Origin: Leuconostoc inhae
GTDB lineage: Bacteria > Bacillota > Bacilli > Lactobacillales > Lactobacillaceae
Direction: 5' to 3'
NCBI RefSeq assembly: GCF_019656015.1
Contig: NZ_BPKW01000008.1
Location: 1 to 64,000, forward strand
Length of the DNA stretch: 64,000 nt
The notes below the pieces were generated by a model. That model made no database searches and was not told the origin of the DNA. It saw only the letters and a program-made list of their open reading frames with translations. The position numbers were made by a program, and so were the translations under genes. The first letter of the stretch is position 1; every line of letters begins with the position of its first letter. Of the stretch, positions 28,527 through 34,866 are shown in pieces.

Positions 28527-29441
28527 TTACAAATAATCCGCTGTTTTTTCAGCAATAGCATTAGCAGATTGTTGTAACGCGATTTCTTCATCTGGTGTCA
28601 GAGGCAAGTCAAATGTCTGCACAACGCCACCGCGACCAATGATAGCTGGTGTTGAGATATAACTTTTGAACTTGTCATCATAGTGAGACACAATGGCTTC
28701 ATTACGTGCATCAGATAAGACAAGTTGAGCTAATGAGACGGCAGCATGTGCAATGGCAAAATTAGTATATTTTTTACCATTAAAAACAGTAAAACCACCA
28801 ACTCTGGCATCGTTAGCAATTTTATCAAGGTCTAAATGGTGTTGCGCAATTAAGGATTGAATGTCTTGACCTAGAATCTTTACGGTTGACCAAGCGGCAA
28901 ATTGTGAGTCACCGTGTTCACCTAACATATAACCTTGCACACTACGAGGATCAACGTGTAATGTTTCTCCCAAAACACGCTTGAGACGTGCTGTGTCAAG
29001 ATAAGTGCCAGTACCAAATACCTGATTGGTAGGCAATCCGGTTGCTTTTTGATAAATACCTGTAATAACATCAACGGGATTTGAAATCACAATCAGTACA
29101 CCATTGAAGCCTGCTTTTTTCAAATCAGCGCCAACTTGTTGTACTTCAGGTGTGTTTGCTTTGAGCTCAGTGAAACGATCACCACCTGGTTTGATTAAAT
29201 CAATATGGCCAAGAGCCGAAATAACAATATCTGCGTCTGTTAAGTCATCGGCTGTGCCTGCATGAACAGTCACGTGTGTGCTAAGCAAACTAGCAGCGTC
29301 ACGAAAGTCTAAGGTGTCTGCTGCTACTTTATCTGGATTTTTATCTACTAAAACTAATTCATCAGCTAAACCTTGCGCAATAATAATATGGGCAACCGTT
29401 GCGCCAACATGTCCAATACCTACAACACCAATTTTCCTCAT
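28527..29441 (-). CDS. hicD: L-2-hydroxyisocaproate/L-lactate dehydrogenase
   Basis: LDH/MDH superfamily, 304 aa. NAD site GIGHVGATVAH (residues 8-18), ISNPVDVIT, GTGTYLDTARL and the catalytic His176 in GEHGDSQ. GTGTYLDTAR and the GHIDLIKPGGDR loop match L-HicDH of Weissella rather than strict L-LDH, so a 2-oxo acid of branched-chain type is a likely substrate. Cytosolic NADH-dependent reduction. TATAAT (complement of 29479-29484) is its -10. Confidence 0.85.
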   Translation of the reverse strand: MRKIGVVGIGHVGATVAHIIIAQGLADELVLVDKNPDKVAADTLDFRDAASLLSTHVTVHAGTADDLTDADIVISALGHIDLIKPGGDRFTELKANTPEVQQVGADLKKAGFNGVLIVISNPVDVITGIYQKATGLPTNQVFGTGTYLDTARLKRVLGETLHVDPRSVQGYMLGEHGDSQFAAWSTVKILGQDIQSLIAQHHLDLDKIANDARVGGFTVFNGKKYTNFAIAHAAVSLAQLVLSDARNEAIVSHYDDKFKSYISTPAIIGRGGVVQTFDLPLTPDEEIALQQSANAIAEKTADYL

Positions 29442-29554: not shown

Positions 29555-30310
29555 TTAAGCAATAAAATATTTGAGAATGTCTGCTTCATTTAAGGCTGAT
29601 TTATCCTGACCACGTACATCAAGCACAATATCACCAGCATTGAGAATAATGAGGCGGTTACCATATTTCAACGCGTCGGCTAAATTATGTGTAATCATTA
29701 GAGCTGTTAATTGATTTTTAGTTACTTGCTCGTTAGTTGCTAGCATCAATTGTTCAGAAGTTTTGGGATCCAGTGCCGCTGTGTGTTCATCTAACAGTAG
29801 CAGTTCAGGCTTTACGCGGGTTGCCATGAGAAAACTAAGTGCTTGACGTTGACCACCGGACAAATTACCAGTGGCCGTATTCAGACGTGTATCTAAATTA
29901 TTGCCCATCACTTGTGTGATTTTAGCATATTCGCTGATTTTTTCTTTAGTCAAACCACGGCTACGTAATGTACGTTTTTGACCACGTTTTTCAGCAAGCA
30001 ACAGGTTTTCAGCAACAGTCATACGTGGTGCGGTCCCCATTTTGGGGTCTTGGAAAACACGCGCGATATAATTTGTACGCGTCACAGCAGATTCATGCGC
30101 AATACTATGACCGTGGTGTAGCAATTTCCCAGAATCAATGGCTAAATTACCAGCAATCGTATTAAACAAAGTTGATTTACCAGCACCATTTGTACCAAGA
30201 ACGGTAATAAAGTCACCTTCATAAATATCGAGATTAAGTGATTTTAAGATTTGTACGTTGTCACCAACAGTGACAATAATATCTTTAAGTGAGAAAACAG
30301 GTTCAGTCAT
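29555..30310 (-). CDS. ABC transporter ATPase, TrpZ-like
   Basis: 251 aa from ATG 30310, overlapping the permease stop. Walker A GTNGAGKST, signature LSGGQRQALSFLMA, Walker B LLLLDEHTAAL (Glu then His where most have Glu-Pro), H-loop ITHN. The ATPase of a three-gene importer with a PF04392-type binding protein, whose relatives import tryptophan in streptococci. Last gene of the operon. Confidence 0.88.
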   Translation of the reverse strand: MTEPVFSLKDIIVTVGDNVQILKSLNLDIYEGDFITVLGTNGAGKSTLFNTIAGNLAIDSGKLLHHGHSIAHESAVTRTNYIARVFQDPKMGTAPRMTVAENLLLAEKRGQKRTLRSRGLTKEKISEYAKITQVMGNNLDTRLNTATGNLSGGQRQALSFLMATRVKPELLLLDEHTAALDPKTSEQLMLATNEQVTKNQLTALMITHNLADALKYGNRLIILNAGDIVLDVRGQDKSALNEADILKYFIA

Positions 30311-31202
30311 GTGTAGCCACACCTTTCTTGATTACTGTATCGAGCTTCAGTGCTTTACGTAATTGTGGGAGCATCATAGCAACAGCTAGCACAATTGCTG
30401 AAATCAAATTCAAATCGTTTGTTGAAAAACCAAGACTGAGTACGGCTAACAACACAAGACGGTATAGAATTGAACCAACAATGACGGCAACCAAACGACC
30501 ATTAAGTGACAAGTCGCCAAAAGCGACTTCACCAATAATAATTGATGCTAGCGCGATAACAATAATGCCAATACCCATGTTAATGTCGGCGTAACCATTA
30601 TTTTGGGCAATGACTGCGCCACCAAATGCAATTAAGCCGTTAGATAACATTAAGCCCATGATTGTCATACGATCTGTTTTTATCCCAATTGATTGGGCCA
30701 TATTCGCATTATCACCAGTAGCAATGAACGATTGACCTAGTTCTGTTTGTAAGAAAAATATGAGTGCCAATGTGATGATTGTGATGATGATAAAGCCAAC
30801 AAAGACAGAATCAAAGTTTTTGGGTAAATGCTGTAGCAATGGGGATGAAAAAATTGATTTTTGATTAAGTAATGAGATGTTGGCTGAACCCATAATACGC
30901 AGGTTAATCGAGAGTGCAGCTGTCATGACGAGTATACCAGCCAATAGGATTGGAATCTTGCCTTTCGTGTAGAGCAAGCCGGTTGCTAGACCAGCAATCG
31001 CACCAACAACAAAAGCTGCGAGTGTTGCTAAATAGGGATTAATACCATGAGAAATCATGGCAACTGCGGTGGCGGCACCTAAGGGGAAAGAACCTTCAAC
31101 AGTCATATCAGGAAAATTTAAAATTCTAAATGTGAGAAATAAGGCGACCCCAAGTACAGCCCACAGAAGCCCTTGTCCGATACTAGATACAATAATACTC
31201 AT
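30303..31202 (-). CDS. ABC transporter permease, TrpY-like
   Basis: 299 aa, eight to nine hydrophobic segments, BPD_transp_2 type, with GGTVEGSFPLGAA-like substrate path residues (FPDMTVEGSFPLGAATAV). It overlaps both neighbours by a few bases, so translation is coupled. Expected to form the membrane dimer of the tryptophan importer. Confidence 0.85.
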   Translation of the reverse strand: MSIIVSSIGQGLLWAVLGVALFLTFRILNFPDMTVEGSFPLGAATAVAMISHGINPYLATLAAFVVGAIAGLATGLLYTKGKIPILLAGILVMTAALSINLRIMGSANISLLNQKSIFSSPLLQHLPKNFDSVFVGFIIITIITLALIFFLQTELGQSFIATGDNANMAQSIGIKTDRMTIMGLMLSNGLIAFGGAVIAQNNGYADINMGIGIIVIALASIIIGEVAFGDLSLNGRLVAVIVGSILYRLVLLAVLSLGFSTNDLNLISAIVLAVAMMLPQLRKALKLDTVIKKGVATHD

Positions 31203-32203
31203 TTGAACACCTCGCCTTTAGTTTCTGCTGTTTTTATCATGTCTGCTGGTAATCGCAAACCAAGTAGTTTAGCTTGTTTTAAATTAATTACCATGTCACC
31301 CTTGGTAATTGTTTTGACGGGATAAGTTGCAGTGTCTTTGCCTTTTAACACTTGCCCTGCCATAATGCCTGCTTGATAACCAATATCATATTGACTAACT
31401 GAAATTGTTGCCACACCGCCATCTTTTACCATTGTATCAACAGCTGGAATGACTGGGATATTGTCTTTATTAGTGATATTAATGAGTGTCTTCATGGCAC
31501 TGGCCACACCATTATCTTGTGGCGCGTACACGACATCCACCTGACTGGACATTGTTTCGGCCACTTGTTGCATATCATTTGTTGTCGAGATCGTATACAT
31601 ATGCACATCGTAGCCAGCTGTTTTGGCAAGTTGTGCCATTTTCTTAGCATTGTATTCGCCACCATGATCAGATGTGGTATAGATGATACCTAATTTTTTA
31701 GCCTTAGGGACAACTTTTTTGATGACGCTAAGATGTTGCTCTAGGGGAGAATCACCAGATGTACCAGTAATATTTGCACCCGGCCGTTGGGCGGTTTTAA
31801 CTAATCCAGAACCGGCTGGATCAGTGATACCAGCTAAAATAACTGGGCTGTTACCATCAGCGGTTTTAGCCAAAGATAAGGCTGCCGGTGTTGCGATACC
31901 AAGTGTCAAATCAGCATTCTCGTTAGCAAATTTTTGCGACATTGTTTTGAGGTTAGCCTGATTAGCTTGGGCATTTTGATAATCAATTTTAATTTTTTTA
32001 CCCGAATAGCCCTGTGTTTTCAACCCAGCCACGATACCGCGATGGATTTCATCAAGGGCAGGGTGCGTCACGAGTTGTAGTATACCAACTGTTGGCACGT
32101 AATCTTTGTTTTTGGTTTGTTGGGCAGGTTTACCTGTTACAATAAAGGCAACTGCTAGAAAGCCAACAATAATGGCGATGGTAGATATAAGACGTTTGTT
32201 CAT
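31199..32203 (-). CDS. Tryptophan-type ABC substrate-binding protein, TrpX-like
   Basis: About 334 aa from the second of two adjacent ATGs (32203; GGAG 7 bases upstream). Residues 5-23 are a hydrophobic signal/anchor and there is no lipobox Cys, so it may be membrane-anchored by an uncleaved helix. The mature part is a two-lobed PF04392 fold (PTVGILQLVTHPALDEIHRGI..., VDVVYAPQDNGVASA). Its leader region contains a Trp-codon attenuator, strong support for tryptophan as substrate. Confidence 0.88.
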   Translation of the reverse strand: MNKRLISTIAIIVGFLAVAFIVTGKPAQQTKNKDYVPTVGILQLVTHPALDEIHRGIVAGLKTQGYSGKKIKIDYQNAQANQANLKTMSQKFANENADLTLGIATPAALSLAKTADGNSPVILAGITDPAGSGLVKTAQRPGANITGTSGDSPLEQHLSVIKKVVPKAKKLGIIYTTSDHGGEYNAKKMAQLAKTAGYDVHMYTISTTNDMQQVAETMSSQVDVVYAPQDNGVASAMKTLINITNKDNIPVIPAVDTMVKDGGVATISVSQYDIGYQAGIMAGQVLKGKDTATYPVKTITKGDMVINLKQAKLLGLRLPADMIKTAETKGEVFK

Positions 32204-32225
32204 CATTTTTCTCCGAAATTTCCCT

Positions 32226-32272
32226 AAAATAAAATTGACCTTGGACGGCCATACAAGGCTTTCCAAGGTCAA
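32226..32272 (-). terminator. Second leader terminator (T2)
   Basis: TTGACCTTGGA and TCCAAGGTCAA (32235-32245, 32262-32272) form an 11-base stem; the minus-strand continuation is TTTTATTTTA. Confidence 0.75.
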
Positions 32273-32306
32273 AAGAAAAGTCTGCATGGCATATTCCCAT
32301 ACAGAC
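32271..32306 (-). terminator. First leader terminator (T1)
   Basis: GTCTGTATGG pairs with CCATGCAGAC (one wobble) on the minus strand (32280-32289/32297-32306), followed by TTTTCTTTT. Its 5' arm GUAUGG can instead pair with CCAUAC upstream (complement of 32331-32336). Confidence 0.75.
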
Positions 32307-32324
32307 TCGATTGCTACACAAAAT

Positions 32325-32397
32325 GCGTCGGTATGGATAAAACAAATGTTTTAAACATCAGCTTTATCCGTTACCGAAAAGCCGACTTTACCGACGC
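32325..32397 (-). promoter_or_regulatory. Competing leader hairpins of the attenuator
   Basis: Minus-strand segment A GCGTCGGTA (32389-32397, overlapping the last Trp/Arg/Arg/stop codons) is exactly complementary to segment C TACCGACGC (32325-32333). Segment B (TCGGTA near 32372-32377 and GGATAAA/TTTATCC 32335-32369) can also pair with C. C in turn can pair with the T1 arm. Mutually exclusive folds are what an attenuator needs. Confidence 0.7.
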
Positions 32398-32435
32398 CAC
32401 CAGGCATTGTTAAGTTGTGCTACTACTTTTTGCAT
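32388..32435 (-). CDS. Trp leader peptide, 15 aa, tandem Trp codons
   Basis: ATG at 32435 with a CGGAGA ribosome-binding site 7 bases upstream encodes MQKVVAQLNNAWWRR. Two adjacent TGG codons precede two Arg codons and the stop. Tandem Trp codons in a 15-codon frame are very unlikely by chance in this AT-rich DNA. Ribosome stalling here would alter the pairing of the overlapping hairpin segment and so control T1/T2 read-through into the TrpXYZ-like operon. It is the E. coli trpL principle, seen here on a transporter gene. Confidence 0.8.
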   Translation of the reverse strand: MQKVVAQLNNAWWRR

Positions 32436-32463
32436 GTGTTATCTCCGAGTTATTTATAGGTTA

Positions 32464-32492
32464 AGGATACTAAGAATTTGATGAGTTGTCAA
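32464..32492 (-). promoter_or_regulatory. Promoter of the Trp-transporter leader
   Basis: TTGACA (complement of 32487-32492), 17-base spacer, TATCCT (complement of 32464-32469). Confidence 0.75.
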
Positions 32493-32512: not shown

Positions 32513-33400
32513 CTAATCGTTCACGTTTAAATTATTTAAAAATTTAGAAACTATGTGAGAATTATTTCCTTTTTTCCAAATAACAGCCTCTTTAACTGTA
32601 ACTTCTGGCTTTTTGAGAGGATAATAATTAATTGCGCTACTTAAAGTATCCATAAAACTTCCTGGTACAATTGCAATTCCTAAGCCACTAGCAACCAATC
32701 CCAATAAAGCTAAATCGGTATCTGCTTCTTGAATAATGTTAGGTGTAAACCCACTGTTATGACAGACAGTAATTAGCTGATCATATGAGTAAGGACGTCT
32801 TTCTCGAGAGTAAGTGATAAATGGCATATTACTTAGAGCTACAAGATTGATATCATTATTACCTGTTACAGGTAATAATGAACCTTTAGCGACAGCAATC
32901 ATGGCTGAGTCAGTGTAAATTGTACGGTAATCTAATTTGTCGAATGACTTATCATAATAAGCAACAATTCCTACATCCACTTGATTATTTATTACCGCTT
33001 TTTCCAGTGAAGGTGAGTCCTTTTCAATTAGTTCAACTTTAATTTTAGAAAACTCAGACCGAAAAGAATGAACAATGGTTGGCATCACATTATGCAAGCC
33101 CATGCTATTATATGCAATACGCAAAACACCTACCTGACCGTTAGCAATTGCTTTTGCTTCATGAACACCTTGCTCAATAATATTTAGCGCGCTTGTAACT
33201 TTATTCCTAAATGCTATTCCAGCAGGTGTCAGTTTGACTGAACGTGTCGTTCGTTCAAATAGTTTAAATCCTAATTCATTCTCTAATTTTCTTATTTGGT
33301 AGCTTAATGGTTGTTCTGAAATATGTAAGTCTTCGGCGGCTTTGCGAAAGTGTAGAAAGCGAGCTACTGTTAAAAAATAGTTTAATTGCCTTAATTCCAT
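32513..33400 (-). CDS. LysR-family regulator
   Basis: 295 aa. Typical N-terminal HTH (MELRQLNYFLTVARFLHFRKAAEDLHISEQPLSYQIRKLENELGFKLFER) and a periplasmic-binding-like effector domain. AAGGAATGG precedes ATG. Divergent from the unknown gene at 33736, which it probably activates. Confidence 0.9.
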   Translation of the reverse strand: MELRQLNYFLTVARFLHFRKAAEDLHISEQPLSYQIRKLENELGFKLFERTTRSVKLTPAGIAFRNKVTSALNIIEQGVHEAKAIANGQVGVLRIAYNSMGLHNVMPTIVHSFRSEFSKIKVELIEKDSPSLEKAVINNQVDVGIVAYYDKSFDKLDYRTIYTDSAMIAVAKGSLLPVTGNNDINLVALSNMPFITYSRERRPYSYDQLITVCHNSGFTPNIIQEADTDLALLGLVASGLGIAIVPGSFMDTLSSAINYYPLKKPEVTVKEAVIWKKGNNSHIVSKFLNNLNVND

Positions 33401-33735: not shown

Positions 33736-34866
33736 ATGGCAAATGAAAATAATTACAATGAAAAGTATAATAGCATTAAGGCTTCTCATGAGGATATCAC
33801 ATTAGAAGACGAAACGACGCATTTCGAATCGCTTTCAGTCCCCTCATCAAAAACTGACATCTGGGAAGAAACTGCTGCAGGAGTTGTTGCAGAGGCAGGA
33901 GATTATGATGTTTTGCTATGGGCAGCAGGGTATGCGCTTTTTGGAAATGGGGAAGGCATCTGGGGGCCCGGTCAGTCAGCAGAAAGAGAAATCCAATTAA
34001 TTGTTGTGCCCAAATCTCAACGTGGTACGATGAAAGACAATAATTTTATACGTGTTGGATGGACACCTAAGGAGCGGTTGCATGGTGATAAATTTAAGGT
34101 TACAAAAGCCGCGGATAAAGTTACTTGGGATTTTAACGGACTTAAATTTGTAGCAACGCCACCAACATGGAATATTTCAGGTAAAGCTGGAGCTGCTGAA
34201 TTGGATCTTGTGTACGAACAAATTGGTACAGCTCTTTGGAACTGGGGGCCATTCGCAAAGGCGAATGAAAGTGACCGTGCTGGATATGATGCATTTGTTA
34301 ATGTAAACGGCACAATTCGTACAGCGGAACATGATTTAAAAATTGAGAACGGATATGGTGTTCGTGAACACATTATTACAGGGCAATCAAATGATCCAGT
34401 AAAAAATCTTCCTGTACCTAACTGGATGTGGTGGCTTTACACAATTAAAGAAGACGTAAAAGTAAACTTTTTCCAACCAGGTCCTAACAAAATTGGTTTC
34501 GTAAAATATGGTGATAAGCAAGTTGATTTTGGACCCAATAATGGTTTAATTGAGTATGAAACACTTGAAAAGTGGGAAGATCCCAAAAGCGGTGTATATA
34601 TGCCTGTTAAGTGGCGATTGAAGATGGAAAAGGATGATTGCGTTGTGGATGTCAAAATCGCTGCGCATGGTCGTTCATACAGTCACTGGCCAGTTGCGAC
34701 AGGAACACGGATGTATTGCTATCTCCTTTCAACAATGACGGGAACGATTTCTCTTCCAGATGGTCGTGTTGTGACACTTGACAATCACTTGACGGTAAAC
34801 TCTTTCTGTAAGACTATTCTTACTGCAGGGGAGAACTTATCTGGTTCTAAACCAGAACTTGATTAA
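33736..34866 (+). CDS. Unknown beta-rich protein, possibly CrtC/AttH-like
   Basis: 376 aa, no signal peptide, cytosolic. Rich in Trp and predicted beta strands. Motifs such as GYGVREHIITGQ and NFFQPGPNKIGFVKYGDKQVDFG recall the double-lipocalin CrtC/AttH-type proteins and their DUF7064/7065-like relatives, but I do not recognise it firmly. GGAGGAAAT precedes ATG. Divergent LysR suggests inducible control by a small molecule. Single gene with its own terminator. Codon use is like its neighbours. Confidence 0.45.
   Translation: MANENNYNEKYNSIKASHEDITLEDETTHFESLSVPSSKTDIWEETAAGVVAEAGDYDVLLWAAGYALFGNGEGIWGPGQSAEREIQLIVVPKSQRGTMKDNNFIRVGWTPKERLHGDKFKVTKAADKVTWDFNGLKFVATPPTWNISGKAGAAELDLVYEQIGTALWNWGPFAKANESDRAGYDAFVNVNGTIRTAEHDLKIENGYGVREHIITGQSNDPVKNLPVPNWMWWLYTIKEDVKVNFFQPGPNKIGFVKYGDKQVDFGPNNGLIEYETLEKWEDPKSGVYMPVKWRLKMEKDDCVVDVKIAAHGRSYSHWPVATGTRMYCYLLSTMTGTISLPDGRVVTLDNHLTVNSFCKTILTAGENLSGSKPELD

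Follow-up and report, generated by a model that had tools for sequence, protein, structure and literature searches.

In the E. coli trp attenuator (RF00513), a leader open reading frame (ORF) with Trp codons is followed by mutually exclusive pairings and an intrinsic terminator, and expression is turned on when charged tRNA-Trp is low. The Salmonella his attenuator, as set out in the excerpted part of the report, forms a series of alternating pairings with an extra competing hairpin, which was proposed to lower basal read-through (PMC1183508). Leader peptides are also known in Firmicutes: those for hisS/hisZ (PMC2965389) and his (PMC9413887) sense amino-acid supply and, in the portions of these reports at hand, show that peptide attenuators exist in this group. 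T-box RNAs likewise sense amino-acid supply with interchangeable specificity, binding tRNA without a ribosome, and trpX of Streptococcus suis is T-box regulated according to the available part of PMC9382623. Within the same partial texts, the T-box, hisS/hisZ and his papers describe no leader scaffold common to several amino acids. Another RNA, the "trpB motif" (RF04312), has more than 900 representatives and its most frequent downstream neighbor is an uncharacterized ABC transporter similar to those for amino acids; the excerpted account of Narunsky et al. (2024, PMC11109978) lists it as a strong riboswitch candidate and mentions no leader ORF. That paper was the only one listed from 2023 on in a search of the open-licence literature for the motif. 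Searches of the same literature for trpX/trpXYZ leader peptides and for Leuconostoc, Firmicutes or Enterococcus attenuators left the family reported below undescribed in the titles and abstract beginnings of the matches listed.

We analyzed a 64,000-nt stretch of a Leuconostoc inhae contig, hereafter the window. From reading and modeling of the sequence, its minus strand between 32492 and 32206 is a predicted tryptophan leader-peptide transcription attenuator of trpXYZ. It is very probably ribosome mediated, with trpXYZ switched on by scarcity of charged tRNA-Trp, and would belong to a homologous Lactobacillales family with exchanged regulatory codons. The element shares with the E. coli trp attenuator the Trp-codon ORF, the exclusive pairings, the intrinsic terminator and the predicted response to low charged tRNA-Trp. 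It differs in sitting on an importer and in having an extra segment (B), an additional hairpin (P2) and two terminators; also unlike the E. coli leader, most relatives of the window element have a single Trp codon. The alternating pairings and the extra competing hairpin recall the Salmonella his attenuator, which responds to another amino acid; the likeness is one of description, and we do not claim homology.

Read from 32492 downward, the locus consists of a sigma-70-type promoter, a 15-codon ORF, competing RNA segments, two intrinsic terminators and trpXYZ. The promoter (32464 to 32492) comprises TTGACA at 32492-32487, a 17-nt spacer and TATCCT at 32469-32464; it scored 10/12 matches in a promoter scan and is nearly identical upstream of the leader in the genus loci compared. 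A Shine-Dalgarno sequence, CGGAGA (32442 to 32447), precedes the leader ORF MQKVVAQLNNAWWRR (32388 to 32435), which runs from ATG at 32435 through MQKVVAQLNNA and tandem Trp codons 12 and 13 (TGG at 32402-32400 and 32399-32397) to CGT, CGG and TAA (32390-32388). The leader thus contains codons of the regulated amino acid. Segment A (GCGTCGGTA, 32397-32389) spans the second Trp codon to the stop and is the exact complement of TACCGACGC (32333-32325) within segment C. Hairpin P2, seen by folding and by covariation in one group of relatives, starts 1 nt past the stop codon (5' strand 32378 to 32386, 3' strand 32357 to 32365) and sequesters part of segment B, GGATAAA (32369-32363), which would pair with TTTATCC (32341-32335) once P2 is open. 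Segment C (TTTATCCATACCGACGC, 32325 to 32341) is the common partner of A, B and D. Segment D (GTCTGTATGG, 32306-32297) forms the 5' arm of the first terminator, T1, and pairs either with the 3' arm E (32289-32280) or, as antiterminator, with CCATACCGAC of C at one mismatch. T1 extends over 32271 to 32308, its D:E stem being followed by TTTTCTTTT; the first terminator scan also found it, as 32308-32278. The second terminator, T2, with its U-run (32226 to 32272), has an 11-bp stem, TTGACCTTGGA/TCCAAGGTCAA, followed by TTTTATTTT; it came from sequence reading and the second terminator scan, the first scan having given only a shorter inner stem. Its loop holds segment F (CTTGTATGG, 32249 to 32257), which is complementary to E.

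The original prediction had proposed this promoter, leader, start signal, set of competing segments and terminator pair in front of a TrpXYZ-like importer, and both the RNA features and the genes were confirmed. The trpX product (31199 to 32206), a tryptophan ABC transporter substrate-binding protein, reached 422.7 bits against the NCBIfam equivalog NF041285 (cut-off, 390) and also matched PF04392; its nearest named relatives are those of L. rapi (95% identity) and L. gelidum (91%). The permease gene trpY (30303 to 31202; PF02653) and the ATPase gene trpZ (29555 to 30322; PF00005) follow on the same strand. After trpXYZ, also on the minus strand, lies a gene of the L-lactate/malate dehydrogenase family (28527-29441); at 286.6 bits it falls under the L-LDH equivalog cut-off of 303.55 and is possibly another hydroxyacid dehydrogenase. 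Elsewhere in the window, a 376-codon ORF on the plus strand (33736-34866) had no Pfam or NCBIfam match at E 0.001.

Known RNA families did not account for the element. No Rfam family matched the window at gathering, and no related family matched the leader up to E 10; for the T-box (RF00230) specifically, there was no window match at gathering and none in the leader to E 10. The covariance model of the trp leader (RF00513) gave no match to the window, and the trpB motif (RF04312) gave none to E 10. The leader region is predicted to fold with -87.5 kcal/mol, compared with -56.3 (standard deviation, 4.5) for dinucleotide shuffles (z, -6.9; 0/200 as low). A short way upstream, at 32513, is the end of lysR, which has the same orientation, as might be expected if the hairpins were ordinary terminators accompanied by a constitutive promoter between lysR and trpX, and the peptide were there by chance. 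We give this account next to no credence: both hairpins sit between the promoter and trpX, and compensatory changes accompany the conservation of the ORF, the stems and the competing segments. The recurrence of the promoter, the leader and the stems within the genus shows that the leader is not a product of chance.

All 19 genomes sampled from the genus have a leader ending in AWWRR, with the tandem Trp codons kept, before trpX. TGGTGGCGNCGGTA has a single exact occurrence in the genome of the window, the one in the window itself, and four one-mismatch places compare with five in a backward control. TrpX relatives (E up to 1e-40) are present in 230/251 genomes of the family, and we examined 147 trpX upstream regions, 47 from the first searches and 100 fetched later. 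A pattern requiring Trp and then any of a small set of residue combinations close to the leader end picked out leaders with one or more Trp codons in 135 of them, or 134 without the doubtful L107. The 12 regions lacking a pick include two of the Streptococcus-type family f4 with an Rfam T-box above gathering (L074 and L075), two whose leaders were found through a covariance model (L060 and L138) and eight with neither. A peptide attenuator on trpX is the Lactobacillales norm, not an oddity. The original prediction had called such an attenuator on a transporter unusual for Firmicutes; this stands insofar as the two Streptococcus-type trpX regions examined have a T-box, but most of the other trpX regions have a peptide leader.

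The 125 distinct leader ORFs divide into 82 with a single Trp codon and 43 with two, and three forms recur: WWRR, WQSR and WQxWRR. In DNA sequence, the WQS group hardly departs from TGG CAA AGC (CAA in 87/89, AGC in 77/89), as expected if these codons double as segment A. WW-group leaders retain the residues Q-L-N-N ahead of the Trp codons but vary their codons synonymously, L being TTG, CTT, CTC or CTG and N being AAC or AAT. A search of 395 Lactobacillales genomes with the WQS-type leader end TGGCAAARCCGGTAA matched 24 genomes. By coordinates, 16 of the 24 matches fall at known trpX places; L178 is also a trpX leader, L164 and L165 lie inside long open frames, L167 and L187 have no trpX alongside, and matches in genomes G142, G116 and G085 were left out of inspection. 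In these 395 genomes the pattern gave no new target gene, whereas covariance models did (see below).

The competing pairings were then assessed for covariation in 27 of the 31 distinct WW-type stretches (L005, L064, L068 and L081 left out) and 22 of the 26 WQS-type stretches (L105, L111, L125 and L152 left out), relative to shuffles that ignore the relatedness of the leaders. For A:C plus T1 in the WW type, 97.6% of cells were paired and five pairs had changed on both sides, a number reached by 3/500 shuffles; the covariation score was 0.249 versus 0.164 in shuffles, with 0/500 as high. B:C was 95.2% paired, with nine doubly changed cells against 3.0 in shuffles; cell count and score both exceeded those of every shuffle, but there was just one doubly changed pair, a number that shuffles also yield. 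C:D was 94.2% paired; its score was reached by 0/500 shuffles, and its three doubly changed pairs were matched by 185/500. In the WQS type, A:C plus P2 plus T1 was 88.8% paired with 10 doubly changed pairs (3/500 shuffles), B:C was 94.4% paired with five (5/500 shuffles), and C:D was 94.3% paired with covariation not beyond shuffles. When the partners were slid by one to three columns as a control, 13 to 67% of cells paired. The covariation argues that mutually exclusive pairings ending in a terminator or an antiterminator are conserved, as in a ribosome-mediated attenuator.

Ribosome position was modeled with a sliding mask: the RNA from the downstream edge of the mask as far as the end of D was folded, and the probability of the antiterminator, P(C:D), was read out; folding was at equilibrium, not cotranscriptional. 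We take a mask ending at +12/+15 of a codon to stand for a ribosome whose A site holds that codon, assuming a 13-nt footprint. Of the 133 leaders used in the terminator scan (L022, from a fragmented assembly, has a leader and was omitted from these later sets), 88 had a clear T1, and 85 remained after exclusion of three with a short C:D. Mean P(C:D) over the 85 was 0.16 to 0.29 for masks ending from -27 to +6 of the first Trp codon (0.16 at +3), peaked at 0.55 to 0.56 at +12/+15 and was 0.29 at +21 and +24. It climbed again past about +30, reaching 0.77 at +45, since masks that far along also cover B. In the six WQxW leaders, whose Trp codons lie two apart, the peak became a plateau from +12 to +21. 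Shuffling the stretch before C flattened the profile (contrast, 0.33 native versus 0.00 shuffled); the contrast exceeded 0.2 in 53/85 native leaders and was below -0.2 in none, compared with 20 and 22 of 255 shuffled sequences. P2 starts 15 to 17 nt past the first Trp codon in 23/32 WW and 26/47 WQS leaders. Over the 88 leaders, simulated stalling raised P(C:D) by more than 0.2 in 23/32, 36/49 and 6/7 and lowered it by more than 0.2 in one.

The window's own leader switches weakly in silico, with P(C:D) at 0.00 when free, 0.17 when stalled and 0.03 with the ribosome at the stop, because its B:C pairing is very stable; its P2 has G where the other genus loci have A. The sister locus L003 gave 0.00, 0.53 and 0.03, respectively. 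L004, L005 (0.19), L017 and L018 (0.14) were as weak as the window and showed no fall at the stop, and P(C:D) stayed at 0.03 to 0.11 in L080, L081 and L091. At the family level, the modeling indicates that the RNA folds differently according to where the ribosome stands relative to the regulatory codons. The original reading that tandem Trp codons and complementary segments fit ribosome-mediated attenuation is borne out by conservation, covariation and the mask scan. Orthologues keep the Trp codons (all 19 in the genus) and show covariation in A:C, leaders with Trp codons and covarying stems recur across trpX regions, and the alternative states it anticipated from folding appear for the family, with C:D predicted to open when a ribosome sits on the Trp codons.

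A covariance model, R1, was built from 22 WQS-type Trp leaders of genera other than the window's. In a locus search it recovered the window leader (42.8 bits; E, 1.1e-8) and missed those of L020, L057 and L073. In a whole-genome search with stricter filters it matched 108/246 Lactobacillales genomes at E 0.01; the window's own leader was not reported in this search or in that with R2, described below. Most of the 39 R1 matches inspected lie before trpX. The first non-Trp leaders were found by this model of Trp leaders alone. These comprise leaders ending in QLNNRYFSYFR or QLNNYYFSYFR before aroE (L225, L226 and L231), QLNNYFFSYFRSCL before a TrpX paralogue (L224), NLLISVIR before ilvB (L232) and AIIISIIIR before a branched-chain-type binding protein (L241). 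Another leader, QSWQSWHR, precedes trpB (L240), and one match (L227) lacked both a convincing leader and an ORF behind it.

A second model, R2, was made from 27 leaders, partly from loci that it later matched, and it matched 297/395 genomes and 68/80 genera. In 28 genomes chosen for several matches or for their family, not at random, it marked 103 places, of which 89 were read; of the other 14, two (L217 and L232) had been read earlier and 12 weak or antisense matches were left out. Leader ORFs were picked by start codon, Shine-Dalgarno sequence and stop position, with a tie-break of 0.1 for AGC, AGT, AAC, ACT, TTC and TTT, and 5/89 picks have weak start signals (L273, L282, L284, L287 and L311). 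Behind the 89 leaders are genes for 57 TrpX-like proteins, eight aroE, one aroC, one pheA, three trpB, two ilvE, one ilvB and three ilvA (threonine ammonia-lyase). Five branched-chain-type binding proteins (PF13458), five SBP_bac_3 proteins, one D-2-hydroxyacid dehydrogenase, one aminotransferase and one case with no ORF in the stretch make up the rest. These names rest on Pfam and NCBIfam matches of 224- to 230-residue fragments, mostly below whole-protein cut-offs because the proteins are fragments; four SBP_bac_3 assignments are by Pfam, and that of L286 is by likeness only, without an NCBIfam match. The codons agree with the gene in 19/19 of the R2 leaders that precede biosynthetic genes of known amino acid and in 24/24 when five further leaders are included: Trp for trpB; Tyr/Phe for aroE, aroC and pheA; Ile/Leu/Val for ilvA, ilvB and ilvE. 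The mask test, repeated on 81 of the 89 leaders (25 Trp, 45 Tyr/Phe and 11 Ile/Leu/Val), gave a local P(C:D) peak with the mask end at -9 to +3 of the stop codon and a flat profile in shuffles (contrast, 0.19 versus -0.02); the contrast exceeded 0.2 in 33/81 and was below -0.2 in four, compared with 3 and 12 of 162 shuffled sequences.

Codon class also follows importer phylogeny. In a tree of 87 TrpX-like proteins (48 behind Trp leaders, 38 behind Tyr/Phe leaders and one outgroup), which is quick, unrooted and has some long branches, one change separates the classes with support of 98; shuffled labels required 28.4 changes on average, and 0/500 were as low as one. Trp labels came from R1-match peptides for L203, L204, L206, L208-L212 and L217 and from trpX-region picks for L019, L020, L021, L023, L026, L028 and L032; leaders with Trp beside Tyr/Phe (L242, L268 and L269) were labeled as Trp. 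Some other genes behind these leaders invite comment. SBP_bac_3-type proteins of other families behind Tyr/Phe leaders (L313, L333, L342, L350 and L286) may import aromatic amino acids. The 2-hydroxyacid dehydrogenase behind a Phe-rich leader (MAQVKLHNAVFFNSNFR, L323) resembles D-lactate dehydrogenase and perhaps serves phenylpyruvate metabolism. The aminotransferase of L324 follows QLNNSQYWFSYFRESL, a leader that combines Tyr, Trp and Phe codons and might suit an aromatic aminotransferase.

Two Rfam families touch this set. RF04312 matched 9 of the 48 loci scanned (L240, L209, L058, L062, L208, L067, L210, L065 and L293), on the same RNA as the R1 and R2 models. It represents that RNA in Enterococcus-like and related families, as a stem plus terminator before trpB or an amino-acid ABC transporter. 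Its model does not reach L116, L028 or L019, and R1 matches both the window and relatives, in other families, of the type matched by RF04312. This identity, together with the listing of the motif as a strong riboswitch candidate in the excerpted report (PMC11109978), would favor a metabolite riboswitch whose leader ORF is incidental. We regard that as very improbable, given that a Trp-codon ORF is present in 134/147 trpX regions, that Tyr/Phe or Ile/Leu/Val codons appear where the gene is of those pathways (24/24 biosynthetic genes), and that antiterminator opening is predicted to follow the mask position at the regulatory codons; the motif's own authors, in the same partial text, leave a classic attenuator open (PMC11109978). 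The second family, RF02863 (Enterococcus sRNA_2410), matched eight Tyr/Phe leaders (L225, L226, L231, L292, L294, L306, L313 and L340), which precede aroE, aroC, pheA and one amino-acid binding protein. It is listed as a small RNA gene; from these matches, sRNA_2410 may be the terminated leader RNA.

Attenuation by codon reading has also to be weighed against a TnaC-like arrest peptide, in which the nascent chain would sense free tryptophan rather than empty tRNA-Trp. The retention of Q-L-N-N through synonymous changes in the WW group and the single Trp codon in 82/125 distinct ORFs would suit such a peptide. The residue at the stall site varies, however, among W, Y/F and I/L/V, which a specific pocket for free Trp would not permit, and a peptide that stalled when Trp is abundant would let the antiterminator form and so increase uptake, the reverse of what an importer needs. 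We hold this explanation to be as improbable as the riboswitch. What appears to be new, from the sequence comparisons, is one homologous, re-coded attenuator family across the order Lactobacillales, the account it would give of an orphan riboswitch candidate and, possibly, a relay to the second terminator; its mechanism would be of a known kind.

The second terminator was considered separately. Of 133 leaders scanned, 81 gave two terminators and 52 a single one. WW-group leaders show complementarity between E, the 3' arm of T1, and F in the T2 loop, with a mean z of -2.7 over 24 leaders with T2; the signal is absent in the WQS and WQxW groups (z, -0.8 and -1.1), and E:F was rejected as a general feature of the family. 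Against the whole downstream stretch, E:F ranked within the best 1% of shuffles in 14/30 WW leaders and within the best 5% in 18/30; the window's own E:F is only within the best 8% (16/200 do as well). Native E:F averaged -12.3 kcal/mol, versus -8.3 for swaps between Leuconostoc and other genera, and 53/432 swaps reached the native mean (L064 and L068 were left out of the shuffle and swap comparisons). Through this pairing, a stall in Leuconostoc and its kin is possibly passed on to the second terminator. T2 may instead be a plain back-up terminator. The complementarity is also found in six of seven relatives with no T2 detected by the scan, and its role may therefore be another than a relay to T2. 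Loop lengths suggest that the full E:F helix and the full T2 would be hard to combine, so that E:F could be a second antiterminator freed by C:D. For L021 the scan gave no T2; on visual inspection of the sequence immediately before trpX, T1 is followed by a pyrimidine stretch able to pair with the trpX Shine-Dalgarno region, and it may be as if the second terminator had turned into a translational block.

The reading we favor, a ribosome-mediated attenuator, would operate as follows. While RNA polymerase makes the leader, a ribosome would translate the conserved 15-codon ORF. At low Trp, it would stop with UGG in its A site and cover A to about 13 nt downstream; P2 would still form and hold B, therefore leaving C free to pair with D, and T1 could not form. 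Folding predicts this state for the family and weakly for the window. With enough Trp, the ribosome at the stop codon would cover the 5' strand of P2 and free B, allowing B:C to form, and after ribosome release A too could pair with C. D:E would then form and transcription would end at T1, a proposed order of events built on covarying pairings. In Leuconostoc and the nearest genera, E freed by C:D could pair with F and might block T2, a relay suggested by the complementarity, by which one stall would reach two terminators. If WW were replaced by codons such as YYFSYF or IISII, the same scaffold would respond to Tyr/Phe or to Ile/Leu/Val.

Taken jointly, it is likely that one homologous scaffold, re-coded for Trp, Tyr/Phe, Phe or Ile/Leu/Val, extends over the Lactobacillales as a codon-programmable, ribosome-read counterpart of the T-box; that the trpB motif and sRNA_2410 are parts of this scaffold family; that the codons predict importer substrates, the TrpX sister clade and some SBP_bac_3 proteins being Tyr/Phe importers; and that in Leuconostoc and its kin E:F relays the stall to a second terminator. 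The window's genome also holds 27 T-box candidates, eight above gathering. One of these 27, with GGTGGCACCGCGG, lies directly before trpB (L188; contig C1, 314718-316232); it scored 68.9 bits, below gathering, with an E value of 5.5e-15. With trpB behind a T-box candidate and the importer behind a peptide leader, two putative Trp sensors could be compared in one cell.

For an RNA motif at present classed as an orphan riboswitch candidate, these results offer a concrete candidate mechanism that is open to testing. They suggest that Gram-positive ribosome-read attenuators can form one homologous family with exchangeable codons, and that leader codons may serve as a predictor of substrate for the amino-acid importers of food and gut bacteria.
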